Source: Quercus robur (lineage: Eukaryota; Streptophyta; Magnoliopsida; Fagales; Fagaceae). Taken from it: 64,000 nt of DNA. Positions 20,965-64,000 of the stretch are shown piece after piece. Position 1 is the first letter of the stretch, and every line of letters begins with the position of its first letter. The position numbers and the translations under genes were made by a program. Under the pieces are notes generated by a model. That model saw nothing but the letters and a program-made list of their open reading frames with translations, ran no database searches and had not been told where the DNA came from. The stretch spans positions 95,186,862-95,250,861 of the forward strand of contig NC_065535.1 in NCBI RefSeq assembly GCF_932294415.1, in the 5' to 3' direction.

Positions 20965-21002
20965 CAGCAAAAACTCCGTGGTTAATTTAGACTAAAAAAA
21001 GT

Positions 21003-23897
21003 ATGGCGTCCTCTTTGTATCGTTTAAAATTTGTGCACTTGCTTTCTTTCCTCTCAACATTTCATCTCATAGCCACTCGCTCGTTTTCCTTTGTACAGCC
21101 TCTTTGCCATGGTCATGAAAGGTCTTACTTGCTGCAATTTAAGCAAAACCTTGTCATCAACAAAACTGCTTCCATTGATCCATCGGCTTATCCCAAGGTT
21201 GCATCCTGGACATTAGAAGGAAACAACAGTGACTGCTGCTCATGGGATGGGGTAGAGTGTGATGAGTTCATGGGCCATGTCATTGGTCTTGACCTCCATA
21301 GCAGCTGTCTCTATGGTTCTATTAACTCTAGCAGTAGCCTTTTCAATCTTGTTCATCTCCAAAGGCTTAATCTTGCTTACAATCATTTTAACTACTCTCA
21401 AATTCCATCCACAATTTCCAGTCTATCCAAACTAACATATCTCAATCTCTCTAATTCTTCTTTTTCTAGTCAAATCCCATTAGAATTTTCACAATTGTCC
21501 CAAATGTCATCCCTCGATCTTTCTTTCAACCATGATTTGGAAATCAAGAAGCCAAGTCTAGGTCGCCTAGTTGGAAATTTAACCCTTCTAGAAAAACTTG
21601 ATTTGAGTGGGGTGAACATAATCTCCATTGTGTCTAATATCTTGGCAAATTTGTCTTCTTTAACGTCCCTTCGTCTCAGCAACTGCAAATTGCATGGGGA
21701 ATTTCCAGTAGGCATCTTTAAGCTTCCAAATTTACGAGTTCTTGATGTGCAATTCAATGAAGGTCTCACAGGTTATCTGCCTGACTTTCAACGGAGTAGT
21801 CCCCTTGAGGAAATGATCTTCTCACACACAAGTTTCTCAGGTAAGCTACCTGCTTCAATAGGAAACCTTAGCTCTTTGAATAAAATTGATCTTTATCAGT
21901 GCAACTTCTCTGGGTTCATTCCATCTTCACTTGGTAGCCTCATGCATCTAAATTATCTAGACCTTTCTTGTAACACTTTCAAGGGCGACATTCCATCTTC
22001 CATTGGAAACCTCATCCAACTTTCTTATGTACACCTTGCACAAAATGAATTGACTGGTCCAATCCCTTTTCAGCTTGCAAACCTAACCCAGTTGACTCAC
22101 CTTTTTCTATATTATAATTTTATTAGTGGCCAGATCCCTTTTGGGCTTATGAACCTCACCAAATTATCTTTCTTGGACCTTGCGGGCAACCACTTTGAAG
22201 GTCAGATTCCAATCTTTAACCTTGAGAATCTTGAACTTCTTGATCTTTCCACAAACAATTTTATTGGCAAAGTGGAGTTCGACAAGTTTGTTAAGCTCAA
22301 AAAATTAACTTCCTTGCATCTATCTTATTGTGGGGTGTCATTAATTATTGGTGAAACTAGTGACAATACAACACTTCAAAAGTTTGAAAGTTTAGGATTT
22401 GGTAGGTGCAACTTGAGCAAGTTCCCAGACTTCCTAGCAAACCAAGATGAACTAACATGGCTAGTCCTAGACACCAACAACATTCATGGTCAAGTACCGG
22501 CATGGTTTTGGAATGTGAGTAAAAAAAATTTAGAGGTTATCGACCTTTCATACAACTTTCTTACAAGCCTCGGTCAACATCCAATTCTTCTTCCTTGGAC
22601 CCATCTAGCCATTTTAGACCTCACATCTAACAAGCTCCAAGGATCACTTCCAATTCCATCTTTCTCCACCTTGCAATATCGTGTATCAAACAATTCATTC
22701 ACTGGAAAAATTTCAGAGTTGATTTGTAACATGGGTTCTCTTCAGGTCCTTGATTTGTCAATTAACAACTTAAGTGGTTCACTTCCTCAATGCTTGCACA
22801 ACTTTGGTGATTCTCTGCTTATATTGGATTTACGGAGGAACACATTTGAAGGAAGCATCCCACAAACTTGGACAAATGGAAGCAAATTAATGATGATTAA
22901 CTTTAGCCAAAACAAGTTTCAAGGGAGGTTACCAAGATCTTTGGCAAAGTGTATAATGTTGAAGGCCCTTGATTTCAGTAATAACCAATTCAGTGATACT
23001 TTTCCCTTATGGTTAGGAAACCTTCCGAATTTAAAGATTCTCATTTTGCGGTCCAACAAATTCTATGGCCCAATAAGGACTCATAAAACAAAATATAAGT
23101 TTCCCAGCTTGCAAATCTTTGACCTCTCGTACAATAGTTTTACTGGAAGTTTGCCATTAAAATTCTTTCAATATTCCTATTCTTCCAGATTTGATAGCGC
23201 AGACCACTTATCATATATTCAAATAAATTCATCCTTCAGTTTTCAAGGTTACAAATGGTATCAGGAGTATAGTTTTGCAATGATGATGATAAACAAAGGA
23301 GTGGTCACGATTTACACGAAGGTTCAAGAATTGTTCACAGCTCTTGATTTCTCAAGTAATAGATTTGACGGAGATATTCCAGAATCCATTGGAAATTTAA
23401 ATTTAAGAGGCCTTCGTTTGCTCAATTTTTCCAATAACATTCTCACTGGTCAAATCCCACAAGGCTTAAAAAACCTTGTAAATTTGGAATCACTAGACCT
23501 TTCTCAAAACAAGCTTTACGGGGAAATCCCACAACAACTAACGCAACTTACTTTCCTGGAATCCTTCAATGTTTCTAATAATCATCTCATGGGACCTGTA
23601 CCACAAGGAAAACAATTTAACACTTTTCCAAGCAATTCATTTGAAGGAAATCCAGGATTGTGTGGTAGCCCATTGACAAAGAAATGTAAGAACTTTGAGG
23701 TTTCACTACCTTCACCTTCAACTCCTGAAGAGAGTCAAGATTTGGGGTCCCCATTTCAATTTGGTTGGAAAATTGTTTTGATTGGGTATGGATTTGGACT
23801 AGTTGTTGGAGTGACTATAGGGCAGGTTGTGAGTGCAAGGAATCACGATTGGTTAATGAAGACCTTCAGAAGGAAACTGCAGAGGGGATTGATTTAA
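21003..23897 (+). CDS. LRR receptor-like protein 1 (Cf/RLP type)
   Basis: An intronless 964-residue extracellular leucine-rich-repeat receptor without a kinase. Residues 1-30 form a signal peptide. The N-terminal cap has the paired cysteines CCSWDGVEC (78-86). A long array of plant LRRs with LxxLxLxxNxxxGxIP repeats follows. A non-LRR island at about 725-775 is followed by GVVTIYTKVQELF and the last LRRs. After NPGLCGSPLTKKC (883-895) comes a Ser/Pro/Glu stretch, then one membrane segment (about 922-944) with GxxxG motifs and a 20-residue basic tail. This is the layout of tomato Cf proteins and Arabidopsis RLPs, which sense apoplastic ligands and signal through SOBIR1/BAK1-type co-receptor kinases; the ligand here is unknown. 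The start at 21003 matches its paralogue. Compared with gene 2 it lacks two residues in one mid-array LRR (GQIPIFNLENL). Its promoter has a nearby solo LTR. No disabling lesion is visible. Confidence 0.93.
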   Translation: MASSLYRLKFVHLLSFLSTFHLIATRSFSFVQPLCHGHERSYLLQFKQNLVINKTASIDPSAYPKVASWTLEGNNSDCCSWDGVECDEFMGHVIGLDLHSSCLYGSINSSSSLFNLVHLQRLNLAYNHFNYSQIPSTISSLSKLTYLNLSNSSFSSQIPLEFSQLSQMSSLDLSFNHDLEIKKPSLGRLVGNLTLLEKLDLSGVNIISIVSNILANLSSLTSLRLSNCKLHGEFPVGIFKLPNLRVLDVQFNEGLTGYLPDFQRSSPLEEMIFSHTSFSGKLPASIGNLSSLNKIDLYQCNFSGFIPSSLGSLMHLNYLDLSCNTFKGDIPSSIGNLIQLSYVHLAQNELTGPIPFQLANLTQLTHLFLYYNFISGQIPFGLMNLTKLSFLDLAGNHFEGQIPIFNLENLELLDLSTNNFIGKVEFDKFVKLKKLTSLHLSYCGVSLIIGETSDNTTLQKFESLGFGRCNLSKFPDFLANQDELTWLVLDTNNIHGQVPAWFWNVSKKNLEVIDLSYNFLTSLGQHPILLPWTHLAILDLTSNKLQGSLPIPSFSTLQYRVSNNSFTGKISELICNMGSLQVLDLSINNLSGSLPQCLHNFGDSLLILDLRRNTFEGSIPQTWTNGSKLMMINFSQNKFQGRLPRSLAKCIMLKALDFSNNQFSDTFPLWLGNLPNLKILILRSNKFYGPIRTHKTKYKFPSLQIFDLSYNSFTGSLPLKFFQYSYSSRFDSADHLSYIQINSSFSFQGYKWYQEYSFAMMMINKGVVTIYTKVQELFTALDFSSNRFDGDIPESIGNLNLRGLRLLNFSNNILTGQIPQGLKNLVNLESLDLSQNKLYGEIPQQLTQLTFLESFNVSNNHLMGPVPQGKQFNTFPSNSFEGNPGLCGSPLTKKCKNFEVSLPSPSTPEESQDLGSPFQFGWKIVLIGYGFGLVVGVTIGQVVSARNHDWLMKTFRRKLQRGLI

Positions 23898-30516: not shown

Positions 30517-31020
30517 TCTATATATATATATATAACCGAAGCTTTTGAAGCTCCCACAAATTTCCACGTCAGCATTATTTTAAAAAAAAAAAACAAAAAT
30601 TCCAATTTTTTTTTTTAAAAACCCCGATAATACATAAAACCCAATAATACCAAAAAAAAAACTAAATTCTGATTTTCTATTTCTCCCGTTCCCCTTCTCC
30701 TTCCCCGTTCCACTTCTTTGTCATAAAAAACCTCTGTTTCTCTTCAACACAAAAAACCCGATAATGACTTTCTTCTCCATTGTTTCACAAACATGAGAAC
30801 AACGACTACACAATGCACTCGGCAGAGAGGCTCCACAACACCATTGAGATCTGTGGCGGATTGACCCAAGAGACAACTCTCCACTTCCACCCATTTGCAC
30901 GGATGGGTTTGCTTGAAGGTTTTCTCTCTCTCTTTGGAACACTGGTAATTCAGGTTTTTCTCTCTCACTCTTTGGGTTTTCAATTTTGGTAGATATATAG
31001 ATTCAAATTGCTTCTTAAAA

Positions 31021-31503
31021 TTTTCCACTCCTACTTAGGGTTTTGGTTTTAGGTTTTTGAATTTCTTGATTAGTTTATTTTTATGATTAATCGATGGGCA
31101 GTCCTAACCATTTAATCTGTTTACATAGGTTGTTGAAATTAAACATCTGTTAGCATCCGCCTCTGTTTTCTTTCAAACCCACTTAGTGTTTTAATTAAAA
31201 TTTTCCACTCCTACTTAGGGTTTTGGTTTTAGGTTTTTGAATTTCTTGATTAGTTTATTTGTATGATTAATCGATGGGTAGTCCTAACCATTTAATATGT
31301 TTACATAGGTTGTTGAAATTAAACATTTGTTAGCATCCGCCTATGTTTTCTTTCAAACCCACTTAGGGTTTTAATTAAAATTTTCCACTCCTACTTAGGG
31401 TTTTGGTTTTAGGTTTTTGAATTTCTTGATTAGTTTATTTTTACGATTAATCGATGGGCAGTCCTAACCATTTAATCTGTTTACATAGGTTGTTGAAATT
31501 AAA
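31021..31503. repeat. 180-bp tandem repeat, 2.7 units, inside the Helitron
   Basis: Units start at 31021, 31201 and 31381, each with TTTTCCACTCCTACTTAGGG. The first two units are complete and the third stops after about 123 bases. Only a few substitutions separate the units, so the expansion is recent relative to the surrounding sequence. Confidence 0.95.
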
Positions 31504-42558: not shown

Positions 42559-43567
42559 AATGCATATGTTGAAATAATCACATGTCATCTTTTTCTTTTA
42601 AGCATTTGTTGTTAATGGCATCACCACAGATGGGTGTTTGTTTTAAATTGAATTGTTTATGAAAATATACCATTTCGACTTGAAACTTCTTAGTGAGTGA
42701 GATTTAATTTGAAACCAACCATAACTATAGGTTTTTTTTAATGGAAAATATAAACCTTGAGCTGGCATTGTTGGAACTTGTAAATGTGACACTTGACATA
42801 GACACAAACTTAGTAGTAATTTTCTTTTTCTTTTTCTTTGGGAGAAAACAAACTTAGTAGCATTTGTTGACTATTCTGGTTTTTTTAACTTTAAAGAACT
42901 ACCAAATGAATAAAAATAAAAATAAATAATGTGAAGGATAAAGTTTAGCTACAAAATTGGTTATAGTCTTAAACTATAACCTTACTCAATAAAATGAAAA
43001 TTACAACATATTTTGAAAATTTAACTATTGAATTGCATATTCTTTACTCTCTTAGTACACGTTAAATTTTTTTGTCAATCAGATATTATTTATTATATGA
43101 TCTATAAGCTTATATTTTAATCATAATTTTAAATTACAAAAACTTGCAATTTAAACAATTTATTTATAATATAGCTATTGGTCTTTAATTTTCTAGAAAT
43201 TTTGCAAGTATGAAGATTATAAGAAGAAGATGTAATCTAATGGTAGATTTGTCAAAATTCATCTCCAATAAAAAGATATCAAGTAAGGTTGTAGTCATAA
43301 GCTATAAACAATTTTGTAGCTAAACTTTGTCTATAATGTAAATGGCTTTCTAATCTTTTTTCTTTATAAAAAAAATAAAGGAAACGAAATGAAACCTATA
43401 TAAGTAGGATACTCATTTAGTGCGGCTAATACCCGTGTAGTAATTAGTCAATGGCTGAGATCGAAAAGTTAGAAAATTCACTTTTAATTTCACTATTTCA
43501 GTGCTTAGATTAAATAAAAATTAAACTTTTAACTTTTTTACATTTTTGGTAATGTTTAGGTTGATTT
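42559..43567. other. AT-rich intergenic DNA
   Basis: No gene and no bounded element recognised. CTATAACC/GTTATAG and TAGCTACAAAATTGG/CCAATTTTGTAGCTA-like words near 42950 and 43310 are inverted with respect to each other, hinting at an old foldback element of about 380 bp. Confidence 0.45.
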
Positions 43568-43760: not shown

Positions 43761-44218
43761 TTCTCTACCCACTTTTTTCGTGGGTTTCTCTTTTTTTTCT
43801 GCAGTTCCCTGAATCTAAACCTAATTTCAGCTTTCACTAACCTGTCTTTCTATCCCTTAAACTTCACATTAGCCGTCTTCTTTGGTCTTCCTGGCTTCGG
43901 TGTAGATACTTGGTGTTTGTTTCTTCTGTTTTTTGGATGCTCCACGGAAGTGGGTCTCTCTTTGACATTGGACGATTCCCATCTGGCACTTTGGAGGCGA
44001 TTTTCTTTGCTTTTGTGTGGGCCTGGTGTGCTGGCTTTGTATGGCGGGTTGCTCCACCTTTCGTGGGTTTTGGTTGCTGGAATAGCTCTCTGTTTAACGG
44101 GTTGCTCTGCCTTTTGTGGGTTTTGGTTATCTACAACCAGTGAGTGGGTCGGTACCCCTTTTGTATGGGAACCGTTTCCAGCATCTGATGAAGGAAGCGG
44201 GATTGGTCCGTCCATCTA

Positions 44219-47200
44219 ATGATTTGTCTGTGTCATTTATATTGCTTAATGATGAGTATGATTGTGTGGAATTGCAGAGGAGCCTTAAAGCCCTCTTTTC
44301 AAAATCATGTTAGGGAACTGGTTAATTGTCATGATCCAGCTATTATGGTTGTTATGGAGACTCGAATTGGTGGTGATAGAGCTAGGGATATCTCGGATAG
44401 GTTGCCGTTTGATGGAGCCATCCATTCAGACACGATTGGTTTCTCTGGTGGAATTTGGCTTCTCTGGAACTCTGATAAAGTGCAGATTACTCAGTTAGCT
44501 ATGTCTGAGCAGGAGATTCACGTTTTAGTGAAGGTAATCTCAACTTCCCTTGAATTTATTTTTTCTGCTATTTACGCCAGTCCTAGATTCCATGAAAGAT
44601 GCATATTGTGGAACAATCTTAAAAATGTTGCTGACCTGCATGAGAAACCTTGGATAACAGCTGGAGATTTTAATGAAATTCTTGCTGTTGGGGACAAGTT
44701 TGGGGGTAGAGCTGTTAATTCAAATAGGTCCTTGCTTTTTAAAGACTGTTTTGATTATTGCAACATGATAGATATGGGGTTCACTGGGCCTCGGTTTACT
44801 TGGACTAACAGACGTAATTTTAATTCGTTAGTCCAAGAAAGAATTGATCGTTTCTTTGCTAATCCAAACTGGTGTGCTGCTCATCCCGATGCGAAGGTGA
44901 CTCATCTTACAAGATGTGCATCTGATCATTGCCCGGTGCTTCTCGAACCCAACCCGAGTATTGGGTTTCGTCTTCCCAGGCCATTTAGATTTCAAAGCTT
45001 TTGGTTGTCTGACCTATCTTTTCCTGGGATTGTTTCGGAAGCTTGGGGGCTTTATCGACCACTCCAAGTGGCTATTGATTGTTTTTCCAGGAAGGCTTCG
45101 GATTGGAATAAGCACCACTTTGGAAATATCTTTGGGAGGAAGAAGCGAGTTTTAGCCCGGCTGAATGGTGCCCAGAAAGCTTTGGCTGAAACTCCTTCTC
45201 ATTCTTTGGTGGAATTGGAGAAATCTTTGCATAAAGAGTTAAATGAGATTCTTTGTCAGGAAGAGGAGTTGTGGGTGCAAAAGTCTCGTATTAATCGGCT
45301 AATTGAGGGCGATAGAAACACTGCCTTTCATCATATGTCTACAATTGTTAGGAGAAGGCGTAACCGTATTTCGCGTATAAAAAATGATATGGGAGAATGG
45401 ATTACTAGTGAGGGTGGGACTATATCTTTTATTAGAGAAGGGTTTAGTAAATTGTTTTCAACTACCCTTGATTCTTCTCCTTTACATATCCCCCAACCCT
45501 CTAGGTGGCAAGTGGTTTTGTCGGAAGAGGATAAGGGCAGCCTGAATTTACCGGTGTCTGATGATGAAATCAGAGAGGGTTTGTGGGCTTTAAAACCGTT
45601 CAAAGCCCCTGGTCCGGATGGACTCCATGCAGGGTTTTTCCAAAGGTTTTGGCCCACTGTAAAGGAATCTGTGAGGAATGAAGTTATGTCTATCTTTGAA
45701 GAAGGTAGAATTCCCGAGTACCTCAATAGAACCAATATTGTTCTAATTCCTAAAATTGCGGGCCCGGAAAGTTTAGGGAATTATCGTCCCATTAGTCTTT
45801 GCAATACGGTGTACAAAATTGTCTCTAAGATCATTGTAGCTAGGCTTAGACCTCATCTTGATAAGCTAGTCTGCCCTCTCCAATCTGCTTTTGTGCCGGG
45901 GAGGCGAAGTGTAGACAATGCTATTGTGGTGCAAGAGTTAATTCATACTATTAGTAATAAGAGGGGGCTGGGAAGCTACATGGCGATTAAAGTGGATCTT
46001 GAAAAGGCTTATGACAAAATTGAAAGGAGTTTCATTCGAGAAGTGTTGATTAATGCAAATTTACCCTACAATTTGGTTAATCTCATCATGAGTTGTGTTT
46101 CATCTGTTTCCACTTCTATCCTATTTAATGGTGGACTTGCTGAGCCTATTTTCCCCTCGCGTGGAATTAGGCAAGGTGATCCATTATCTCCTTACCTCTT
46201 TATTCTTTGTATGGAAGTTCTTGGGCATATCATTGAAGATAAGTGTAGTGTAAAGAGTTGGGTTCCTGTCAAAAGCTCTCAGAGTGGGATGGCTTTTTCT
46301 CACTTGTTTTTTGCAGATGATTTGGTTCTCTTTGCAAAGGCGGATCATGTGAATTGTTCTACAATTAGGGATGTGCTTGATGACTTTTGTACTAGGTCTG
46401 GCCAATCCATCAGTGAGAGTAAGTCTAGAGTCTATTTCTCCCCAAATGTAGACGTGGATACTAGAGAATCGTTGTGTGATATTTTGGGTTTTAAGTCTAC
46501 TCCTAATCTTGGAAAGTATCTTGGGTTTCCCTTGAAGCACCGGGGAGGGAACAATCAAGATCAAAATTTCATTTTGGAGAGGATCAAGCAAAAGTTGGCA
46601 GGGTGGAAAGCTAATTTATTATCACTTGCAGGCAGAACAGTGCTCATTCAAGCCTCCACATCTACTATTCCTGCCTATGTCATGCAATGCACGGTGTTAC
46701 CCAAGAAGTTGTTGGATGATATTGATAGAGTTAATCGCAATTTTCTGTGGGGATCTTCGGATTCTTTGAAAAGAACACACTGGGTGGGTTGGCACAAAGT
46801 TACCAAAGCCAAAGAGCAAGGGGGTCTTGGAATTCAATCAGCTAGGGGAAGGAATCAAGCTCTGCTTGCTAAGCTTAATTGGAGATTTCAGACGGAGAAG
46901 GATGCTATGTGGGCAAAGGTTCTTAGAAGCAAGTATTGTACTAGCCATCGGTTGCACGCTAGAGCTAAAGACATGCTTCCTTGCTCTAGAGTTTGGAAAG
47001 CAATTCAAAAGGGCAGTGAGGTTTTCCATAAAGGCACTCGGTGGATTCTGGGGCAAAATAGTAATTTGAGCATTTGGCATGACAAATGGTTTGCAAAGGC
47101 TCCGTTAAGAGCTTTAATTCAAGGTCCTCTCCTTGAAGAAGAAGAGAGGCTCCAAGTTAAAGAGGTTTTTGGTCCTCATGGATGGGATTGGTCAAAAGTT

Positions 47201-47674
47201 TCTGTCCAAATTCCAAATGATGTTATTATGGAAATTAATGCCATGCCTTTTTCTTTAGGGACTTCAATTGAGGAAGATAGGTTGATTTGGAATGGTGATA
47301 AGCATGGGGATTTTGAGCTCAAATCAGCGTATTCTTTAGCCACTAGATTCAGTGAGGAGGAAGAGGAGTTTATGGGTTGTTGGGTTTGGAAGGTGGATAC
47401 TTTACCACGCATTAAATCTTTCATGTGGCAATGCTTGCATAATAGCATTGGGGTGGGAGATTGCCTTGTTAAAAGGCACCTTAGTGAGATGGATAGGTGT
47501 CCTATCTGTCTAAGGGAAGTTGAGACCATTATTCATAGACTTAGGGACTGTGAGATGGCAAAAACAACTTGGACTAGCTTGGGGGTTCAGCCAAACAGCA
47601 GCTTCTTTGAGGATAGCATCCACATTTGGCTTGAAAAGAATTGCAAAGATCATGGGTGCAGAGTGCCCAATTAG
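44219..47674 (+). CDS. LINE polyprotein: endonuclease and reverse transcriptase (nonsense-truncated)
   Basis: The 1151-residue frame starts in TAATG, overlapping the stop of an upstream low-complexity frame; the next ATGs (44255 and 44261) begin MSMIVWNCRGALKP, the usual start of plant L1 endonucleases. The AP-endonuclease domain (about 15-240) shows ETR, GDFNEI and SDHCPV motifs. Reverse transcriptase (about 440-720) shows KAPGPDGLHAGFF, SLCNTVYKIVSK, VDLEKAYDKI, GIRQGDPLSPYLF and the catalytic FADD. A zinc-binding region (about 1040-1120) has CPIC and H....C. The frame ends at TAG (47672-47674) where the reading continues in the same frame afterwards, so the stop is a secondary mutation. 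Codon use is normal for a retroelement. Confidence 0.9.
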   Translation: MICLCHLYCLMMSMIVWNCRGALKPSFQNHVRELVNCHDPAIMVVMETRIGGDRARDISDRLPFDGAIHSDTIGFSGGIWLLWNSDKVQITQLAMSEQEIHVLVKVISTSLEFIFSAIYASPRFHERCILWNNLKNVADLHEKPWITAGDFNEILAVGDKFGGRAVNSNRSLLFKDCFDYCNMIDMGFTGPRFTWTNRRNFNSLVQERIDRFFANPNWCAAHPDAKVTHLTRCASDHCPVLLEPNPSIGFRLPRPFRFQSFWLSDLSFPGIVSEAWGLYRPLQVAIDCFSRKASDWNKHHFGNIFGRKKRVLARLNGAQKALAETPSHSLVELEKSLHKELNEILCQEEELWVQKSRINRLIEGDRNTAFHHMSTIVRRRRNRISRIKNDMGEWITSEGGTISFIREGFSKLFSTTLDSSPLHIPQPSRWQVVLSEEDKGSLNLPVSDDEIREGLWALKPFKAPGPDGLHAGFFQRFWPTVKESVRNEVMSIFEEGRIPEYLNRTNIVLIPKIAGPESLGNYRPISLCNTVYKIVSKIIVARLRPHLDKLVCPLQSAFVPGRRSVDNAIVVQELIHTISNKRGLGSYMAIKVDLEKAYDKIERSFIREVLINANLPYNLVNLIMSCVSSVSTSILFNGGLAEPIFPSRGIRQGDPLSPYLFILCMEVLGHIIEDKCSVKSWVPVKSSQSGMAFSHLFFADDLVLFAKADHVNCSTIRDVLDDFCTRSGQSISESKSRVYFSPNVDVDTRESLCDILGFKSTPNLGKYLGFPLKHRGGNNQDQNFILERIKQKLAGWKANLLSLAGRTVLIQASTSTIPAYVMQCTVLPKKLLDDIDRVNRNFLWGSSDSLKRTHWVGWHKVTKAKEQGGLGIQSARGRNQALLAKLNWRFQTEKDAMWAKVLRSKYCTSHRLHARAKDMLPCSRVWKAIQKGSEVFHKGTRWILGQNSNLSIWHDKWFAKAPLRALIQGPLLEEEERLQVKEVFGPHGWDWSKVSVQIPNDVIMEINAMPFSLGTSIEEDRLIWNGDKHGDFELKSAYSLATRFSEEEEEFMGCWVWKVDTLPRIKSFMWQCLHNSIGVGDCLVKRHLSEMDRCPICLREVETIIHRLRDCEMAKTTWTSLGVQPNSSFFEDSIHIWLEKNCKDHGCRVPN

Positions 47675-50344: not shown

Positions 50345-50378
50345 GAGCGAAAATACATAGTTAATTTAGACTTAAGTT

Positions 50379-53288
50379 ATGGCGTCCTCTTTGTATTGTT
50401 TAAAATTTGTGTACTTGCTTTCTTTCCTCTCAACTATTCATCTCGTTGCCGTTCCCTCATTTTCCTTTGTGCAACCTCTTTGCCATGGTCACGAAAGGTC
50501 TTATTTGTTGCAATTTAAGGAAAGCTTTGCCATCATCAACAACAACAAGTCTATTTCCTTTGATCCATCAGCTTATCCCAAGGTTGCTTTCTGGACATTA
50601 GAAGGAAACAATAGTGACTGCTGCTCATGGGATGGGGTAGAGTGTGATAAGTCCAATGGCCATGTCATTGGTCTTGACCTCAATAGCAGCTATCTCTACG
50701 GTTCAATTAACTCTAGCAGCAGCCTTTTCAATCTTGTTCATCTCCAAAGGCTTAATCTTGCTGACAATCATTTTAACCACTCTCAAATTCCATCCACAGT
50801 TTCCAATCTATCCAAACTAACATATCTCAATCTCACTAATTCTACTTTTTCTGGTCAAATCCCATTAGAACTCTCACAATTGTCCCAAATGTCATCCCTC
50901 GATCTTTCTTACAACCATTTGGAAATCAAGAATCCAAGTCTAGGACGTTTAGTTGAAAATTTAACCTGCCTAGAAAATCTTGATTTGAGTTTTGTGAGCA
51001 TAATATCCATTGTGCCTAATATCTTGGCAAATTTGTCTTCTTTAACTTCCCTTCGTCTCTATGACTGCAAATTGCATGGGGAATTTCCAGTAGGCATCTT
51101 TAAACTTCCAAATTTACGAGTTCTTAATGTGGGGAAAAATAAAGGTCTCACCGGTTATCTGCCTGACTTTCAATGGAAGAGTCCTCTAGAGGAAATGATC
51201 CTCGCAAACACAAGTTTCTCAGGCAAGCTACCTGCATCAGTAGGAAACCTTGGCTCTTTGACTGAAATTGATATGATGAGGTGCAACTTTTCTGGGCTAA
51301 TTCCATCTTCTCTTGGTAACCTCACAAATCTAAATTATCTGGATCTTTCACTTAACACTTTCGAGGGCCACATTCCATCTTCCTTTGGAAACCTCATCAA
51401 ACTTTCTTTTCTGCACCTTGCCGAAAATGAACTGAATGGTACAATCCCTTTTGAGCTTGCAAACTTGACACAACTGACTCACCTATTTCTATATTATAAT
51501 CATCTTTCAGATAAAATCCCTTTTGGGCTCATGAACCTCACAAAATTATCTTCCTTGGGCCTTGCGGGCAACCACTTTACAGGCCAGATTCCAAGCTCAA
51601 TCTTTAACCTTGAAAATCTTGAAGTTCTTGACCTTTCCGCAAACAACTTTGCTGGCGTTGTGGAGTTTGACAAGTTTGTTAAGCTCAGAAAACTAACTTC
51701 CTTGCATCTATCTGATTGTGGAGTGTCATTAATTATTAATGAAACTAGTGACAATACAACTCTTCAAAAGTTCCAAAATTTAGGTCTCGGTTCGTGCAAC
51801 TTGAGCAAGTTTCCAAACTACCTAGCAAACCAAGATGAACTAAAATGGCTACACCTCGCGACCAACAACATTCATGGACAAGTACCGGAATGGTTTTGGA
51901 ACGTGAGTAAAGAAAATTTAGAGGTTATCGACCTTTCTGAAAACTTTCTTACAAGCCTCGGTCAATATCCAGTTCCTCTTCCTTGGACCCGTCTAGCCAT
52001 TTTAGACATCACTTCTAACAGGCTCCAAGGATCACTTCCAATTCCATCCTTCTCCACCTTGGAATATCATGTATCAAACAATTCATTCACTGGAAAAATT
52101 TCAGAGTTGATTTGTAACATGAGTTCTCTTCAAGTCCTTGATTTGTCCATTAACAACTTAAGTGGTTCACTTCCTCAATGCTTGCACAACTTCGGTGATT
52201 CTCTACTCATATTGGATTTACGGAGGAACACATTCGAAGGAAGTATTCCACAAACTTGGACAAATGGAAGCAAGTTATTGATGATTAACTTCAGCCAAAA
52301 CAAGTTTCAAGGGTTGTTACCAAGATCTTTGGCCAAGTGTATAATGCTGAAGGCCCTTGATTTCAGTAATAACCAATTCAATGATACTTTTCCCTCATGG
52401 TTAGGAAACCTTCCAAATTTAAAGCTTCTCATTTTGCGGTCCAACAAACTCTATGGCCCAATAAGTACTCATAAAGCAAAATATAAGTTTCCCAGCTTGC
52501 AAATCTTTGACCTCTCATACAATAGTTTTACAGGAAGTTTGCCATTAAAATTCTTTCAATATTCCAATTCTTCTAGATTTGATAGTGCAAACCTAACATA
52601 TATTGAAGTTACTTCATCCTTTGTTGTGCAAAACAGTTTTCAAAATTACTTATGGGATCTTAAGTATAGTTATGCAATGATAATGACAAACAAAGGAGTG
52701 GTCACGGATTACATGAAAGTCCAAGAATTTTTCATAGCCCTTGATTTCTCAAGTAATAGATTTGATGGAGATATTCTAGAATCCATTGGAAATTTAAATC
52801 TAAAAGGCCTTTGTTTGCTCAATCTTTCCAATAACATTCTCATTGGCCACATCCCACAAAGTTTGAGAAACCTTGTAAATCTGGAATCATTGGACCTTTC
52901 TCAAAACAAGCTCTTTGGAGAAATCCCTCAACAGCTAACAGAACTTACTTTCTTGGAATCCTTCAATGTTTCTCATAATCATCTTGTGGGACCTATACCT
53001 CAAGGAAAACAATTTAATACTTTTCCAAGCAATTCATTTGAAGGAAATCCAGGGTTGTGCGGAAGCCCATTAACAAAGAAATGTGAGAGTTCTGAGGTTT
53101 CACTACCTTCACCTACAACTCCTGAAGAGAGTAAAGATTTGGGTTCTCCATTTCAATTTGGTTGGAAAATTATTTTGATTGGGTATGGATTTGGACTAGT
53201 TGTTGGAGTGATTATTGGACAGGTTGTGAGTGCAAGGAATCATGATTGGTTAATGAAGGCTTTCGGAATGAGAAAACTGGTGAGGTGA
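50379..53288 (+). CDS. LRR receptor-like protein 2 (Cf/RLP type)
   Basis: An intronless 969-residue paralogue of receptor 1 with the same plan: signal peptide (1-30), cap cysteines CCSWDGVEC (81-89), long LRR array, island (about 728-782), NPGLCGSPLTKKC, Ser/Pro/Glu-rich juxtamembrane stretch, one membrane segment (about 929-951) and an 18-residue basic tail (ARNHDWLMKAFGMRKLVR). No kinase. Differences from gene 1 concentrate in the N-terminal half of the LRR array and in the island, where this copy reads NLTYIEVTSSFVVQNSFQ and has about five extra residues; the flanks of the island and the C-terminus are nearly identical. This is the pattern expected if ligand-binding surfaces diverge while co-receptor contact regions stay conserved. 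No lesion is visible. Confidence 0.93.
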   Translation: MASSLYCLKFVYLLSFLSTIHLVAVPSFSFVQPLCHGHERSYLLQFKESFAIINNNKSISFDPSAYPKVAFWTLEGNNSDCCSWDGVECDKSNGHVIGLDLNSSYLYGSINSSSSLFNLVHLQRLNLADNHFNHSQIPSTVSNLSKLTYLNLTNSTFSGQIPLELSQLSQMSSLDLSYNHLEIKNPSLGRLVENLTCLENLDLSFVSIISIVPNILANLSSLTSLRLYDCKLHGEFPVGIFKLPNLRVLNVGKNKGLTGYLPDFQWKSPLEEMILANTSFSGKLPASVGNLGSLTEIDMMRCNFSGLIPSSLGNLTNLNYLDLSLNTFEGHIPSSFGNLIKLSFLHLAENELNGTIPFELANLTQLTHLFLYYNHLSDKIPFGLMNLTKLSSLGLAGNHFTGQIPSSIFNLENLEVLDLSANNFAGVVEFDKFVKLRKLTSLHLSDCGVSLIINETSDNTTLQKFQNLGLGSCNLSKFPNYLANQDELKWLHLATNNIHGQVPEWFWNVSKENLEVIDLSENFLTSLGQYPVPLPWTRLAILDITSNRLQGSLPIPSFSTLEYHVSNNSFTGKISELICNMSSLQVLDLSINNLSGSLPQCLHNFGDSLLILDLRRNTFEGSIPQTWTNGSKLLMINFSQNKFQGLLPRSLAKCIMLKALDFSNNQFNDTFPSWLGNLPNLKLLILRSNKLYGPISTHKAKYKFPSLQIFDLSYNSFTGSLPLKFFQYSNSSRFDSANLTYIEVTSSFVVQNSFQNYLWDLKYSYAMIMTNKGVVTDYMKVQEFFIALDFSSNRFDGDILESIGNLNLKGLCLLNLSNNILIGHIPQSLRNLVNLESLDLSQNKLFGEIPQQLTELTFLESFNVSHNHLVGPIPQGKQFNTFPSNSFEGNPGLCGSPLTKKCESSEVSLPSPTTPEESKDLGSPFQFGWKIILIGYGFGLVVGVIIGQVVSARNHDWLMKAFGMRKLVR

Positions 53289-54878: not shown

Positions 54879-54922
<44 letters not shown>
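54879..54922. repeat. Poly(A) tract
   Basis: A run of more than 40 A residues. No LINE or SINE body was recognised before it. Confidence 0.9.
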
Positions 54923-54924
<2 letters not shown>

Positions 54925-55212
54925 TTAGAAAGTTTGCCCTTAATGTTTTTTAGCAAGAAAATGCAATTTCTCAAGTTTAGATTACATCAATAACATCTAT
55001 GTGATATGGGCAAAAGAATCCTACAAAGACCATTCAATTGCATTTCCGGCCTTTGTATGCATCCCATGGTGAAAAGAGATGCTGCAACTGCCTACTGAAA
55101 TTAACCCTGCTCATAATGTTTTGAAATCCACTGTACCAATGTCTTGTCTAGTCATCAAAATTTCAAATGACAACAATTTCCCCAAGATTTCATCAATCAC
55201 ACCAGAACAACA
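54923..55212. other. Short intergenic stretch before the CACTA element
   Basis: No gene seen. A 67-residue frame near its end runs into the CACTA element and is not credible. Confidence 0.5.
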
Positions 55213-55689
55213 CACTACAAAAAAAAGGTTCTATGGCCGCGCTTTTAAAACGTGGCTATATGTCAAAAAAACGTGGCTATAGCCTATAGCCGCGTTTTTT
55301 TAGGCCACGCTTTCTAGTGTGGCCTAAAACCTGTGACTATAGGACTCACGGTCCTATGGCCACACTTTTTAACCGCGGCCCAAGACCAGGTCCTATAGCC
55401 GCGTTTAAAACGCGGCCTAAGGTTGTGGTCTTGGGCCGCATTTTAAACGCGGCCTAAGGTTGCGGTCTTGGGCTGCGTTTTAAACGCGGCCCAAGGTTTA
55501 ACCTTAGGCCACGTTTAAAACGCGGCTATATACCCTTAAATTTTTAAAAAAAAAAAAAACCTTTGATTACCAAAAATTAATTTTCGGTAATCAAAAGTTT
55601 TTTTTTTTAAATTAAAATTAAAATTTTTAAAATTAATACTTTCAAACTTTAAAATTTCAATTTTAAATAAATAAAGAAATTCAAAACAA

Positions 55690-55880
55690 AAATACAAACC
55701 CAGCAAATTCAAAAACAAAAACAAAAACAAAAACAAAAATACAAACCCAGCAAATTCAAATTCAAAAACAAAAACAAAAATACAAACCCAGCAAATTCAA
55801 AAACAAAAACAAAAACAAAAAAAAAAAATACAAACCCAGAAAATTGAAATTCAAAAACAAAAACAAAAATACAAACCCAG
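55690..55880. repeat. Tandem repeat of ACAAACCCAGCAAATTC units
   Basis: ATACAAACCCAG(C/A)AAATT(C/G) recurs four times, separated by (AAAAAC)n runs of variable length, with a fifth ACAAACCCAGC at the edge of the GC-rich core. Confidence 0.85.
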
Positions 55881-56155
55881 CATCGCCGATGAAGCTCAAC
55901 GGCGACGCCGAGAGCGTCGCGATCGGCGACGCTAGCGTCGCGGTTCGCGACGCTTGAGCGTCGCGGTTCGACGCTTGCGCGTCGCGAACGGCGACGCTAG
56001 CGTCGCCGTTCGCGACGCTTGAGCGTCGCCGTTCGCGACGCTTGAGCGTCGCGAACGAGCGTCGCGAACCGCGACGCTTGAGCGTCGCCGTTCGCGACGC
56101 TCTCGGCGTCGCCGTTGAGCTTCATCGGCGACGGCTGAGCTCAACGGCGACGGTG
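55881..56155. repeat. CpG-dense palindromic core of the CACTA element
   Basis: Built almost wholly from GCGTCGC, GCGACGC and close variants. The 38-bp stretch 55885-55922 is found exactly inverted at 56092-56129, and shorter inverted and direct copies fill the space between. CpG density is very high in an AT-rich region. A minus-strand frame across it (Arg/Ser/Ala-rich) is a product of the repeat. Confidence 0.9.
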
Positions 56156-56264
56156 TTTGTGGTTTGTGTTTTTTTTTTTTTTTTTTTGACTCTGGGTTGA
56201 ATGGCTCTGGGTTGTGGTTTGTGTTTGTTTGTGTTTGTTGGTGTGCTATTAGTATTGAATGGCT

Positions 56265-57190
56265 CCAGTTAAGGAAAAGAAAAAAAAAAAAAAAGTTTGT
56301 CAAAAAATAAAGTACGGAGGTCCTTAGGCCGCGTTTTTAGCTCAAAAAAACGCGGCCTAAGATCCCGTCTATGGCCACGCTTCTAAAACGCGGCCACAGT
56401 TAAGGAAAAGAAAAAAAAATTTGCTAAAAAATAAAACACGGAGGTCCTTAGGCCGCGTTTTTAGCTTAAATAAACGCGGCCTAAGAGCCCGTCTATGGCC
56501 ACGCTTAAAAAACGCGGCCTAAGAACCTGTCTATGGCCTCATTTTTAAAACGCGGCCACAGTTAAGGAAAAGAAAAAAAAAATTTGCCGAAAAAAAAAAA
56601 CAAGGAGGTCCTTAGGCCGCGTTTTTAGCTCAAATAAACGCGGCCTAAGAGCCCGTCTATGGCCACGCTTAAAAAACGCGGCCTAAGATCCTGTCTATGG
56701 CCTCATTTTTAAAACGCGGCCACAGTTAAGGAAAAGAAAAAAAAATTTGCCGAAAAAAAAAACACAGAGGTCCTTAGGCCGCGTTTTTAGCTCAAGAAAA
56801 CGCGGCCTAAGGTCCCGTCTATGGCCACGTTTAAAAAACGCGGCCTAAGAGCCCGTCTATGGCCTCATTTTTAAAATGCGGCCACAGTTAAGGAAAAGGA
56901 AAAAAAAATTTGCTGAAAAAAAAAACACGGAGGTCCTTAGGCCGCGTTTTTAGCTCAAGAAAACGCGGCCTAAGGTCCCGTCTATGGCCACGTTTAAAAA
57001 ACGCGGCCTAAGAGCCCGTCTATGGCCTCATTTTTAAAATGCGGCCACAGTTAAGGAAAAGGAAAAAAAAAATTTGCTGAAAAAAAAAACACGGAGGTCC
57101 TTAGGCCGCGTTTTTAGCTCAAGAAAACGCGGCCTAAGGTCCCGTCTATGGCCACGTTTAAAAAACGCGGCCTAAGAGCCCGTCTATGGC
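56265..57190. repeat. Tandem array, period about 162 bp, in the CACTA element
   Basis: AGTTAAGGAAAAG starts a unit near 56266, 56398, 56560, 56726, 56888 and 57050. Each unit contains GGAGGTCCTTAGGCCGCGTT, AAACGCGGCCTAAG and CCCGTCTATGGCC or close variants. The last units are almost identical, which indicates recent amplification. Confidence 0.92.
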
Positions 57191-57290
57191 CCCGTTTTTT
57201 AGAAACGCGGCTTCAGTCCATCTTAGGCCGCGTTTTTTATGGCCACAGCTTAAAAAACGCGGCCTAAGACCCCCGCGTTTTGTAGTGACA

Positions 57291-57405
57291 TGAACATGCC
57301 AAAAAAATAACTTTAACCAAACATAATTTCAAACCACGCACAAAAAACATCTTATACCAAAAGGAAATAAGTACTTACAAAGGTAATAGTTTATCCCCCC
57401 CACCC

Positions 57406-60460: not shown

Positions 60461-60502
60461 CGACGACCGGGTACGGTAACATTTCCTAGATAAAGGAGTT
60501 AC

Positions 60503-63500
60503 ATGGTACTCACGCGCTCGATGGCAACCACAAATGACGTCCAAGAAGAAGCTCCTACGACTGCCCTTGAGAGACAGGTCAAGACGCTCGCCGCAGCTGT
60601 GGAGCGCCTCACCAAACAAAACCACGACCTGACGGAACAGCTGAATCAAAAGAGTGCAGCCGTGAATAGCCAAGGAGAAGATCAAGAAGGGAACAGTGAG
60701 GAAAGGAGAAATAATGACGGACCACAGGAGAGTAACGCCCCGAGCAAACAAGTGCGACGGGACGCTAGCATCCCCTCAGTGACGGACACAGCTCTACAAC
60801 CCATCATCGCAGAGATGCAGGCGATGAAGGAACAGATGGAAGTCCTGATGAACGCTCTCAAGGGGCGAGTGTCCAGCGATCTTGACGACCTTGTCAACCG
60901 GACTGACTCGCCATTTACGGCGTCCGTCAACTCCTTCCCCCTGCCGAGTAAGTTCCGCATGCCGAGCATGGACAGTTATGACGGAGTCAAGGACCCCCTC
61001 GATCACCTAGAGACCTTCAAGACCCTGATGCACCTCCAGGGAGTGGCGGACGCAATTATGTGTAGGGCATTCCCTACAACCCTGAAGGGCGCGGCAAAGA
61101 TTTGGTTCAGCCGGCTGACACCAAACTCCATCGGCACCTTCAGGGAGCTGAGCGCTCAGTTCACTACACACTTCATTGGAGGACATCGGTACAAGAAATC
61201 CACGGCTTGTCTGATGAACATCAAGCAGAGAGAGGAGGAGACGTTACGGGCCTACATATCACGCTTCAATAAAGAAGCGCTCACGATCGACGAAGCCGAC
61301 GACAAAATATTGGTGGCCGCGTTCACAAACGGGCTGAAGGGGGGTAAGTTTTTGTTCTCCCTATACAAAAACGACCCAAAGACAATGTCGGAGGTGCTTT
61401 ACAGGGCCACCAAGTATATGAACGCTGAAGACGCTCTACTAGCAAGAGAAGACAGACCGAAGAAAAGAGACAGACAAGAGGATCCCCGACAGGACCAGGG
61501 GCGAAAAAAAGGACGGATGGGAGATCGAAGGGACGAGAGACGTCCAAAACCCATGGGTGGAAGGTTCACAAGTTTCACCCCGTTGACCGCTCCGATAGAC
61601 CAAGTCCTAATGCAGATTAAGGACGAAGGATCCCTGACGTTTCCGGGAAAGCTGAAGAGTGATCCCAACAAAAGGTCAAGAGACAAATATTGCCGCTTCC
61701 ACCGTGACCATGGTCACGACACTGCCGATTGTTACGACTTGAAGCAACAAATCGAAAACCTTATCCGACAAGGAAAGCTGAAGAAGTTCGTCAGCAAGGA
61801 AAGAATGGATCAACCCCAACAAGAACAACACCCCCGTCGAGAAAACGAGCGGCCAAGGCCCCCAATAGGGGACATAAGGATGATAATTGGAGGAACAGCT
61901 ACGGCCGGATCGTCCAAAAAGGCTCGCAAAACGTACCTTCGGATGGTACAGAATGTCCAGCTGGCAGGCACGGTACCAAAGATGGCTAGAAGGGAAGGCC
62001 CCATTATCGGGTTCTCGGAGGAGGATGCAAGACGCCTACACCATCCACACGACGATGCACTCGTCGTCACCTTGCGGGCAGGCGACTACAACATCCACCG
62101 GGTGTTGGTCGACAACGGTAGTTCGGCCGACATCATGTATTATCCGGCATTCCAACAAATGAGGATTGATAGAGAGCTGCTAATACCGACAAACGCCCCG
62201 CTCGATGGTTTCGGGGGGAGTAGGATATTCCCTTTGGGCGCCGTCACGTTATCGGTGACGGTAGGAGACTACCCCCAACAAATCACCAAGGACGTAACAT
62301 TCTTGGTGGTCGATTGCTCGTCAGCCTACAATGCTATTATTGGACGGCCCACTCTCAACTCGTGGAAGGCGGCAACATCAACATACCACCTGATGATCAA
62401 GTTCCCAACGGAGTATGGGGTAGGAGAGCTACGCGGAAGCCAAATTGCCACACGAGAATGCTACGTAGCTATGATGGAGGTGGAAGACCAGATCCAGGCC
62501 TTGAACATAGAAGAACACCGAACGACGGCAGAACCTACTGAGAAGCTAGAGGAGATAGTTCTCGACAGTTCCAATTCAGATCGAACTACCAGGATCGGAA
62601 CGCTTGTCAAACCCGCAATCCGTCAAGAGCTCGTAGCTTTCTTGAGGAGCAATAAGGATGTGTTCGCTTGGAGCCATGACGATATGCCAGGAATCGATCC
62701 CTCGGTCATGGTACATAAGTTGAATGTGTTGCCCTCGTTCCCACCCGTCCGACAAAAGAAGAGAGTATTCGCCCCAGAGCGAGACCAAGCAATAGCGGAA
62801 GAGGTCCGCAAACTCCAAGATGCAAGCTTTATCAGGGAAGTCTACTACCCCGATTGGCTGGCGAATGTGGTAATGGTGAAGAAAACGAGTGGCAAATGGC
62901 GGATGTGCGTGGACTTCACCGATCTTAACAAAGCATGCCCCAAAGATAGCTATCCCCTCCCAAGGGTCGACATCCTAGTGGACTCGACGGCTCAACACCA
63001 ATTGCTAAGCTTCATGGATGCTTTCTCGGGTTATAACCAGATCCGCATGCACGAGGACGACCAGGAGAAGACTTCGTTTGTAACCAGTCAAGGTCTCTTC
63101 TGTTACAAAGTAATGCCATTCGGTCTGAAGAATGCAGGGGCAACATACCAGAGACTAATGAACAAGATGTTCGCACAGCAAATCGGGAGGAACGTCCAAG
63201 TTTATGTCGACGACATGCTGGTGAAGAGCCGGAAGGAGGAAGACCATTTGGAAGATCTCAAGGAAACATTCGGCACACTCCGATCCTACAACATGAAGCT
63301 CAATCCAGGAAAGTGCGCGTTTGGTGTAACGGCAGGAAAATTCCTAGGATTCATGGTATCTCAAAGGGGGATTGAAGCTAACCCGGACAAAATCCGAGCC
63401 ATAATGGAGATGGCCCCCCCGAGAAACGTGAAGGAAGTACAGAGCCTTAACGACAAGGTAGCGGCATTGAATAGATTCGTGTCGAGAGCGACGGACAAAT

Positions 63501-64000
63501 GTTTACCTTTCTTCCGAACATTGAAAAAGTCATTCGAGTGGACGGACGAGTGTCAACGAGCATTCGAGGAGTTAAAAACCTATCTATCTTCACCACCTCT
63601 ACTGAGCCCCTCGCAACCAGGTGAAGAGCTCTTCCTCTATTTGGCCGTCTCCACTGTGGCCGTCAGCGCGGCCTTAATCAGAGAGGAGGACAGGGCACAG
63701 AAGCCCGTGTACTACGCCAGCCGGGCGCTCCGCGGTGCCGAGGAAAGATACCAACCTATGGAGAAACTCGCTTTTGCGTTGGTCACGGCGGCTCGCAAGC
63801 TCAAGCCCTACTTTCAAGCCCATACCGTGAACGTAGTGACCGACAAGCCCTTGCGAAGGGCACTAAGTAATCCTGAGGCCGCAGGTCGACTGACGCTGTG
63901 GGCAATAGAATTGAGTGACTTTGACATCAAGTATCGTCCACGTGTGGCCATCAAAGGACAAGCTGTAGCCGACTTCATAGCTGAGTTTACGCATGACGCG
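60503..64000 (+). CDS. Ty3/gypsy Gag-Pol polyprotein, runs off the window end
   Basis: One frame from ATG at 60503 is open for 1166 codons to the last base, with no stop or frameshift, so the element may be intact. Gag capsid-like core about 150-300 (FPTTLKGAAKIWFSRL, YISRFNKEALTI). A zinc-knuckle-like CRFHRDHGHDTADC follows at about 396. Aspartic protease VLVDNGSSADIMY at about 534. Reverse transcriptase with WRMCVDFTDLNKACPKDSYP at about 800, FSGYNQI, and catalytic YVDD at about 901. RNase H starts near 1040 (YLAVSTVAVSAALI, PVYYASRAL). The last residues (VADFIAEFT) precede, in Tat-lineage elements, a second archaeal-type RNase H and then integrase, which would lie beyond the window. GC content is clearly above the surrounding DNA. 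It has inserted into block S4. Confidence 0.95.
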   Translation, partial: MVLTRSMATTNDVQEEAPTTALERQVKTLAAAVERLTKQNHDLTEQLNQKSAAVNSQGEDQEGNSEERRNNDGPQESNAPSKQVRRDASIPSVTDTALQPIIAEMQAMKEQMEVLMNALKGRVSSDLDDLVNRTDSPFTASVNSFPLPSKFRMPSMDSYDGVKDPLDHLETFKTLMHLQGVADAIMCRAFPTTLKGAAKIWFSRLTPNSIGTFRELSAQFTTHFIGGHRYKKSTACLMNIKQREEETLRAYISRFNKEALTIDEADDKILVAAFTNGLKGGKFLFSLYKNDPKTMSEVLYRATKYMNAEDALLAREDRPKKRDRQEDPRQDQGRKKGRMGDRRDERRPKPMGGRFTSFTPLTAPIDQVLMQIKDEGSLTFPGKLKSDPNKRSRDKYCRFHRDHGHDTADCYDLKQQIENLIRQGKLKKFVSKERMDQPQQEQHPRRENERPRPPIGDIRMIIGGTATAGSSKKARKTYLRMVQNVQLAGTVPKMARREGPIIGFSEEDARRLHHPHDDALVVTLRAGDYNIHRVLVDNGSSADIMYYPAFQQMRIDRELLIPTNAPLDGFGGSRIFPLGAVTLSVTVGDYPQQITKDVTFLVVDCSSAYNAIIGRPTLNSWKAATSTYHLMIKFPTEYGVGELRGSQIATRECYVAMMEVEDQIQALNIEEHRTTAEPTEKLEEIVLDSSNSDRTTRIGTLVKPAIRQELVAFLRSNKDVFAWSHDDMPGIDPSVMVHKLNVLPSFPPVRQKKRVFAPERDQAIAEEVRKLQDASFIREVYYPDWLANVVMVKKTSGKWRMCVDFTDLNKACPKDSYPLPRVDILVDSTAQHQLLSFMDAFSGYNQIRMHEDDQEKTSFVTSQGLFCYKVMPFGLKNAGATYQRLMNKMFAQQIGRNVQVYVDDMLVKSRKEEDHLEDLKETFGTLRSYNMKLNPGKCAFGVTAGKFLGFMVSQRGIEANPDKIRAIMEMAPPRNVKEVQSLNDKVAALNRFVSRATDKCLPFFRTLKKSFEWTDECQRAFEELKTYLSSPPLLSPSQPGEELFLYLAVSTVAVSAALIREEDRAQKPVYYASRALRGAEERYQPMEKLAFALVTAARKLKPYFQAHTVNVVTDKPLRRALSNPEAAGRLTLWAIELSDFDIKYRPRVAIKGQAVADFIAEFTHDA

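Follow-up and report, generated by a model that had tools for sequence, protein, structure and literature searches.

A hypervariable GC-rich palindromic array as a candidate site of gene capture in non-autonomous CACTA elements of Quercus robur

Introduction

In maize, the CACTA element Spm/En has a GC-rich downstream control region near its 5' end, in the first exon of the autonomous element, and methylation of this region controls element activity. The oak element described here resembles Spm/En in carrying a GC-rich repetitive stretch on the promoter side, but its array is hypervariable, palindromic and a neighbour of captured genes, and no array word was found in the one transposase-bearing relative read, over 17.5 kb. 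An earlier note on this DNA had stated that no standard CACTA component resembles the GC-rich core, a statement that overlooks the GC-rich first exon of maize Spm.

Gene capture by Pack-CACTA elements is described in plants, and in the accessible parts of two reports the published model is the fusion of neighbouring insertions (PMC13317346, PMC8903248). Pack-CACTA and Pack-TYPE elements are like the family studied here in being non-autonomous CACTA elements with conserved ends that carry and multiply pieces of host genes. They are unlike it in that the captures here join at a single internal palindromic array and are nested beside it; PMC8903248 does not mention GC-rich sequence, palindromes, hairpins, internal or tandem repeats or the term subterminal. 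The animal Pack-TIRs attributed to gap filling or FoSTeST (PMC8277862) resemble, according to the available portion of that paper, what is proposed for the oak copies: a break or stalled fork in a TIR element, template switching, internal breakpoints and a weak point made up of repetitive DNA. In the animal elements, this weak point is deduced from a statistical skew or is located in the FB4 TIR, whereas here a defined internal array recurs as the junction in many plant CACTA copies.

CACTA elements of Chenopodium also contain captured fragments and tandem arrays, but in the accessible text (PMC8978399) the satellite array lies near the 3' end and is not described as a capture junction, and GC-rich sequence, palindromes and hairpins are not mentioned. 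Fold-back inversions and templated inverted insertions (PMC7467729, PMC11724301) are similar in that inverted copies arise from hairpins or fold-back at broken ends; as far as the accessible parts go, these are yeast studies and do not concern transposons. Among the titles and abstract openings listed, mostly of papers outside subscription, there was no description of a GC-rich palindrome as a CACTA capture site.

Results

The window, that is the whole analysed stretch of 64,000 nucleotides of Q. robur, contains a short CACTA element around the core, as the earlier note had proposed. The features are as follows (strand in brackets where assigned).

55210..55212: TSD ACA, left copy
55213..57287 (-): CACTA element, non-autonomous, 2,075 bp, delimited by TIRs and TSD, with its orientation taken from related transposases
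55213..55226 (+): left TIR CACTACAAAAAAAA
55213..55728: left constant block, element positions 1-516, common to most copies whatever their array neighbour
55683..55882: AT-rich (AAAACAAAAATACAAACCCAGCAAATTC)-type repeats adjoining the array, the site of captured DNA in other copies
55881..56155: GC-rich palindromic array with 18 GCGTCGC/GCGACGC words in palindromic units of 20-24 bp
55883..55922 (+): outer arm 1, exact over 40 bp
56092..56131 (-): outer arm 2, exact over 40 bp
56108..56152: leader-side array edge, constant by copy comparison, with the inverted repeat GTCGCCGTTGAGCT...AGCTCAACGGCGAC
56153..56276 (-): leader, from the array to the subterminal repeats (T tract, GACTCTGGGTTGAATGG), aligning with the second-family leader
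56277..57211: tandem subterminal repeats of about 164 bp with AGGCCGCGTTTT/AAAACGCGGCC words
57274..57287 (-): right TIR CACTACAAAACGCG, equivalent to the 5' end of related transposase-bearing elements
57288..57290: TSD ACA, right copy

The two TIRs, CACTACAAAAAAAA and CACTACAAAACGCG, start with CACTA at both ends (55213 and 57287) and are flanked by ACA on either side, and subterminal repeats of the GGCCGCG type are present at both element ends. The window copy is too short for a transposase, and no captured gene was identified in it.

The core (55881-56155) comprises 275 bp with 69.5% GC and 68 CpG (observed/expected 2.05), compared with 34.2% GC and a CpG ratio of 0.50 for the window minus the element. 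The highest CpG count per 275 bp elsewhere in the window was 26 (starts 54901-57300 left out). All 18 occurrences of GCGTCGC on both strands of the window fall within the core, against a chance expectation of 0.5. Each array unit is a palindrome of the type AGCGTCGC-5 nt-GCGACGCT, with a spacing of 20-24 bp. An exact 38-bp inverted repeat noted before (55885-55922 and 56092-56129) was recovered and extends to 40 bp (55883-55922/56092-56131), which is the longest exact inverted arm. The arms pair over 51 nt at 98%, and the predicted fold is a single nested hairpin of -244 kcal/mol as RNA (z -19.5) and -167 as DNA (z -20.2), in agreement with the strong hairpin potential suspected earlier. The description of the core as nearly pure GC-rich words holds for the richness in GC and CpG but not for near-purity.

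A captured coding or leader sequence had been suggested as a possible source of the outer sequence GATGAAGCTCAACGGCGACG. We found that GATGAAGCTCAACGGCGACG is an inverted copy of the constant array edge that adjoins the element's own leader; the window array thus begins with an inverted copy of its own leader-side edge, and GATGAAGCTCAACGGCGACG as a captured leader was rejected. Captured sequence is indeed involved, namely beside the arrays of sister copies, but GATGAAGCTCAACGGCGACG was not shown to be a captured coding piece. A coding function of the array was rejected as well: the frames that start from the conserved ATGAAGCTCAACGG span 10-237 codons, a length that is not conserved. Rfam (at gathering scores) and tRNA scans of the window gave no match.

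The orientation of the element was deduced from transposase-bearing relatives. The right-TIR pattern CACTACAAAACGCGG occurs 125 times in the genome. Among the 100 occurrences listed, 17 places were located within 20 kb of a transposase (15 different transposases, from a comparison set of the first 82 of 150 Transposase_21 hits), and in 17/17 the transposase reads away from the CACTACAAAACGCGG TIR. The right end is therefore the promoter (5') end, and the window element reads on the minus strand, with its array about 1.1 kb from the promoter-side TIR. One transposase-bearing relative was read over 17.5 kb, not as far as its distal end. It has a 772-aa open reading frame matching Transposase_21 (tnp2) with a Pfam E-value of 6e-96, and over 228 bp its near end shares 82% identity with the right end of the window copy. 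Not a single array word was found in the 17.5 kb, so the array is not general to the clade. Array words were also absent from L029 plus L030 and from L036-L038, and the array as a general CACTA component was rejected on these grounds. L036, L037 and L038 are relatives that have 314 bp of the left end in common at 94%. The array-bearing copies are non-autonomous; they measure 1.6-2.8 kb where both ends are known, and none of 40 array places lies within 20 kb of the 82 listed transposases.

In the genome (786 Mb, 42 contigs), a search with the core gave 120 matches that collapsed to 40 places, with 40 of 62 candidates scored. Arrays are thus present in at least 40 places, 35 belonging to this non-autonomous family and 5 to a second CACTA-like family. 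A match to the family left end lies within 3 kb of 31 of the 40, and in four further places a portion of the left end, or else the right end, is present. Twenty-one copies (the window copy and 20 of the 39 others, about 10 kb each) were compared in detail. Both ends were located in 19 of the 21, and 16 of these 19 have identical 3-bp TSDs; L020 differs by one base, and the left ends of L012 and L015 are damaged. L025 and L026 yielded no right end. L026 and L027 probably represent one duplicated insertion, because they lie 6 kb apart, have identical arrays and share the left TSD triplet ATT.

The left 428 bp served as a query independent of the core. Among the 40 of 399 candidates scored, 37 matched nearly over the full length at 96-100% and 3 covered 314 bp at 94%. 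An array or a remnant of one was present in 33 of the 37 near-complete matches (31 with a core match within 3 kb, plus L061 and L066), confirming the expectation that the core is kept in many sister copies. Sister copies without any such core, which speak against the earlier proposal, form a minority of 4 of 37 (L060, L062, L067 and L068). Internal deletion is the apparent origin of L060 and L068, both of which retain left flanks of the captured type, and L067, of which 1.2 kb was read, looks like a recombinant. In L062 (1-1311), a piece of an RRM gene (glycine-rich RNA-binding-protein-like, Pfam 2e-11) occupies the place where the array would be and is joined without one.

The two sides of the array differ in their constancy. 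The leader-side 45 bp have 0-2 mismatches in 21/21 copies of the window family, and the left constant block is 95-99% identical among the copies compared, with a partial match in L012, L025, L026 and L027. The sequence between the array and the constant left 516 bp differs among copies. We compared 35 array edges from the 21 copies and 14 of 16 further stretches, a set that does not include L060, L062 and L066. On the side away from the promoter end, these edges fall into 8 neighbour classes; in the window class (n = 9), the array adjoins the element's own AT-rich repeats. Junction classes lie in the array in 8/12 cases, compared with its 20% share of the available length (element right part), giving a crude P of 5e-4 under a simple uniform null with classes grouped by ourselves and selection for leader retention ignored.

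Six host gene pieces with donor loci were found, starting by our reading 0-19 bp from array sequence and 97-99% identical to their donors. They are listed below with carrier loci, donor and matching positions.

PRA1 3' part: in L016; donor L042; 542/546; PRA1 by Pfam (3e-47)
eIFiso4G-like first exon: in L032, L034 and L043, in part in L033; donor L039; 506/523 (L034)
E2-like exon: in L035, L044, L045 and L046; donor L040; 476/485 (L035)
Gene X: in L033; donor L041; 736/757
Gene Y: in L047 and L055; donor L063; 318/322 (L055)
DnaJ-like 5' part: in L054; donor L064; 245/248

The names eIFiso4G, E2 of a 2-oxoacid dehydrogenase, DCP2 (which we take gene X to be) and DnaJ are presumptive; for the E2-like piece, a PDB match was weak (E 0.08). 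Among members of the window family, L016, L047/L055 and L054 carry captured chromosomal DNA with an identified donor locus. Junctions recur, with the E2-like one in four copies and the eIF-like one in three. When words are counted by a strict list, 61 nt of degenerate array and filler separate gene X from the last exact array word; the piece is preceded by a 10-bp filler repeating a 10-mer of the donor. The DnaJ-like piece is preceded by 16 bp of its donor, inverted. Five of the six pieces are in sense direction as seen from the promoter end (one-sided P 0.11; the coding direction of four depends on presumptive gene identities).

In the six donor stretches (0.4-1.8 kb, one genome), there was no match to either element and no array, and none contains more than a single array word. 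A short array-like word is present at the junction in the donors of gene Y and the DnaJ-like piece, and short overlaps (microhomology) are visible at breakpoints. The enrichment of array words at donor junctions was not significant (combined P 0.23; distal-end control P 0.99).

Some captures are nested, and their order could be read. In L033, the eIF piece lacks its first 124 bp, and gene X lies between the array and the remainder. Sister copies have the absent part in continuity with the donor, and gene X is therefore later than the eIF piece. In L035, the E2-like piece separates the array from a piece that in L031 starts at the same bases and adjoins the array directly. In the window family, an older piece, longest in L015 and L018, has different end points beside four different array-side neighbours: it ends at reference position 257 in L049, L053 and L066, at 228 in L054 and at 211 in L056, and the array-side sequence that follows differs between the L049/L053/L066 group, L054 and L056. 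In the nested cases seen, new DNA entered at the array edge, with newer pieces placed between the array and older ones.

The second family (L031-L035) was found through its array and has subterminal repeats of about 345 bp, unlike those of the window family; L043-L046 contain the same captured pieces and also have arrays. In L034, a CACTACAAGAAAA end, the one TIR seen, is found about 440 bp beyond the repeats, and the family likely belongs to CACTA. Its leader aligns with that of the window family with scores of 49-55 in three loci, compared with 19.5-21.5 for the best of 200 letter shuffles, a contrast inflated by the common T tract. Outside the T tract, the leaders agree in TTGGGTTGAAATGTTTTG in L031, with nearly the same sequence in the other two loci. 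This agreement suggests that leader and array form a common module. The second-family array edge differs from that of the window family in 13-15 of 45 positions (9 loci).

The array changes faster than its flanks. In 32 copy pairs with flank substitutions of 0.4-2.3%, array lengths differ by 6-395 bp; the L015 and L018 arrays, for instance, measure 596 and 201 bp with flank substitutions of 0.4%. DNA folds of 14/14 selected arrays (9 from the window family, 5 from the second) were far better than those of dinucleotide shuffles, 30 for each array, with z from -8.8 to -23.3. Across 17 copies, the left 430 bp had no excess of C-to-T changes at CpG (0.0098 per site and copy, versus 0.0107 for other C/G), and methylation decay was rejected on this basis for what is a young family. 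In the arrays of L049, L053 and L066, the usual word is accompanied by another, GATCTGCGCGATCGTCGC; even the array word can thus change from copy to copy. L066 (reverse complement, from about 450) has unrelated sequence after the array over the 0.6 kb read, in which the right half of the element was not seen, perhaps reflecting another break in an array.

The window has further features. Positions 43065-43283 match the 345-bp subterminal repeat of the second family at 78% and may be a further remnant of that clade. Two open frames (20991-23894 and 50376-53285), of 968 and 970 codons, start similarly and may represent paralogous receptor-like genes, and frames of 1160 and 1169 codons (44192-47671 and 60494-64000, the latter in the GC-richer window end) look like retroelement proteins. 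A tandem repeat of 180 bp is present in 2.7 copies with 96% matches at 31015-31503.

Discussion

We consider it moderately likely that the core is a hypervariable palindromic array within an internal module of leader and array, and that it acts as a recurrent site of breaks and template switches and as the point at which a Pack-CACTA family acquires host DNA. The junction pattern can be read from the sequences directly; the hairpin mechanism, including the stalling step, is what we infer from it. The array would form hairpins or cruciforms, and a fork may stall or break at these in the course of replication or gap repair. One possible fate of the free end is to fold back, leading to inversion and amplification of the array. 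This may have happened in the window copy, where a fold-back copy of the leader edge would connect the array with the AT-rich repeats of the element itself. The free end could also switch to an unlinked locus, by fork stalling and template switching or by microhomology-mediated gap filling, so that a few hundred bp would be copied and the element rejoined; transposition would then multiply the captured product. Some observations count against a role of the array in capture: 4 of 37 copies lack it, including L062 with its captured RRM piece, donor junctions have no significant enrichment of array words (P 0.23), and the transposase-bearing relative is without an array in 17.5 kb.

The array might instead be a GC-rich 5' leader or first exon comparable to the downstream control region of maize Spm/En, and a putative target of methylation or binding, with captures lying beyond it because promoter and leader must stay. 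The position about 1.1 kb from the end from which related transposases read away (17/17), the highly constant leader-side edge, the alignable leader of the second family and the sense direction of five of the six donor-matched pieces would fit such a regulatory role. We regard it as unlikely, since the array is absent from the 17.5 kb read of the transposase-bearing relative, its length and word order are not conserved, and some copies (L053) use other words; moreover, the sense bias is not significant (P 0.11), and CpG sites in the left 430 bp have no excess of C-to-T changes among 17 copies, albeit in a young family. Fast turnover at low flank divergence, loss of the array from some copies and donor junctions without significant homology to it could also be understood if the array were a passive minisatellite, a GC-rich piece growing and shrinking by slippage, and if junctions marked tolerated deletions and joins. 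This explanation seems quite improbable to us, as it accounts neither for pieces from six loci all starting at the array, nor for insertion between the array and older pieces, nor for a leader-array module in two families.

Capture from two neighbouring insertions followed by aberrant excision, with one deletion end in the array, would correspond to the published Pack-CACTA model as given in the accessible parts of PMC13317346 and PMC8903248. However, the six donor stretches, short as they are (0.4-1.8 kb, one genome), match neither element, and the inverted templated filler points to template switching, making this route very unlikely here. Palindromes of this kind are hard to sequence, which raises the question of an assembly artefact. 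Comparable arrays occur at 40 places, 16 of the 19 copies with both ends have identical 3-bp TSDs, and the E2-like junction recurs in four copies and the eIF-like one in three, making an artefact extremely improbable.

Returning to the array as a break and template-switch site, a broader proposal is possible, if doubtful. Leader and palindrome array together may constitute a portable DNA-acquisition module, an internal hairpin site present in two CACTA-like families, at which unlinked pieces would be inserted with polarity (the newest at the array), downstream of the promoter, and multiplied by transposition. Our data suggest that the array drives gene capture. In this family a candidate site is defined, copies number in the dozens, six donors have been located and nested captures order the events, and the question is therefore directly testable.
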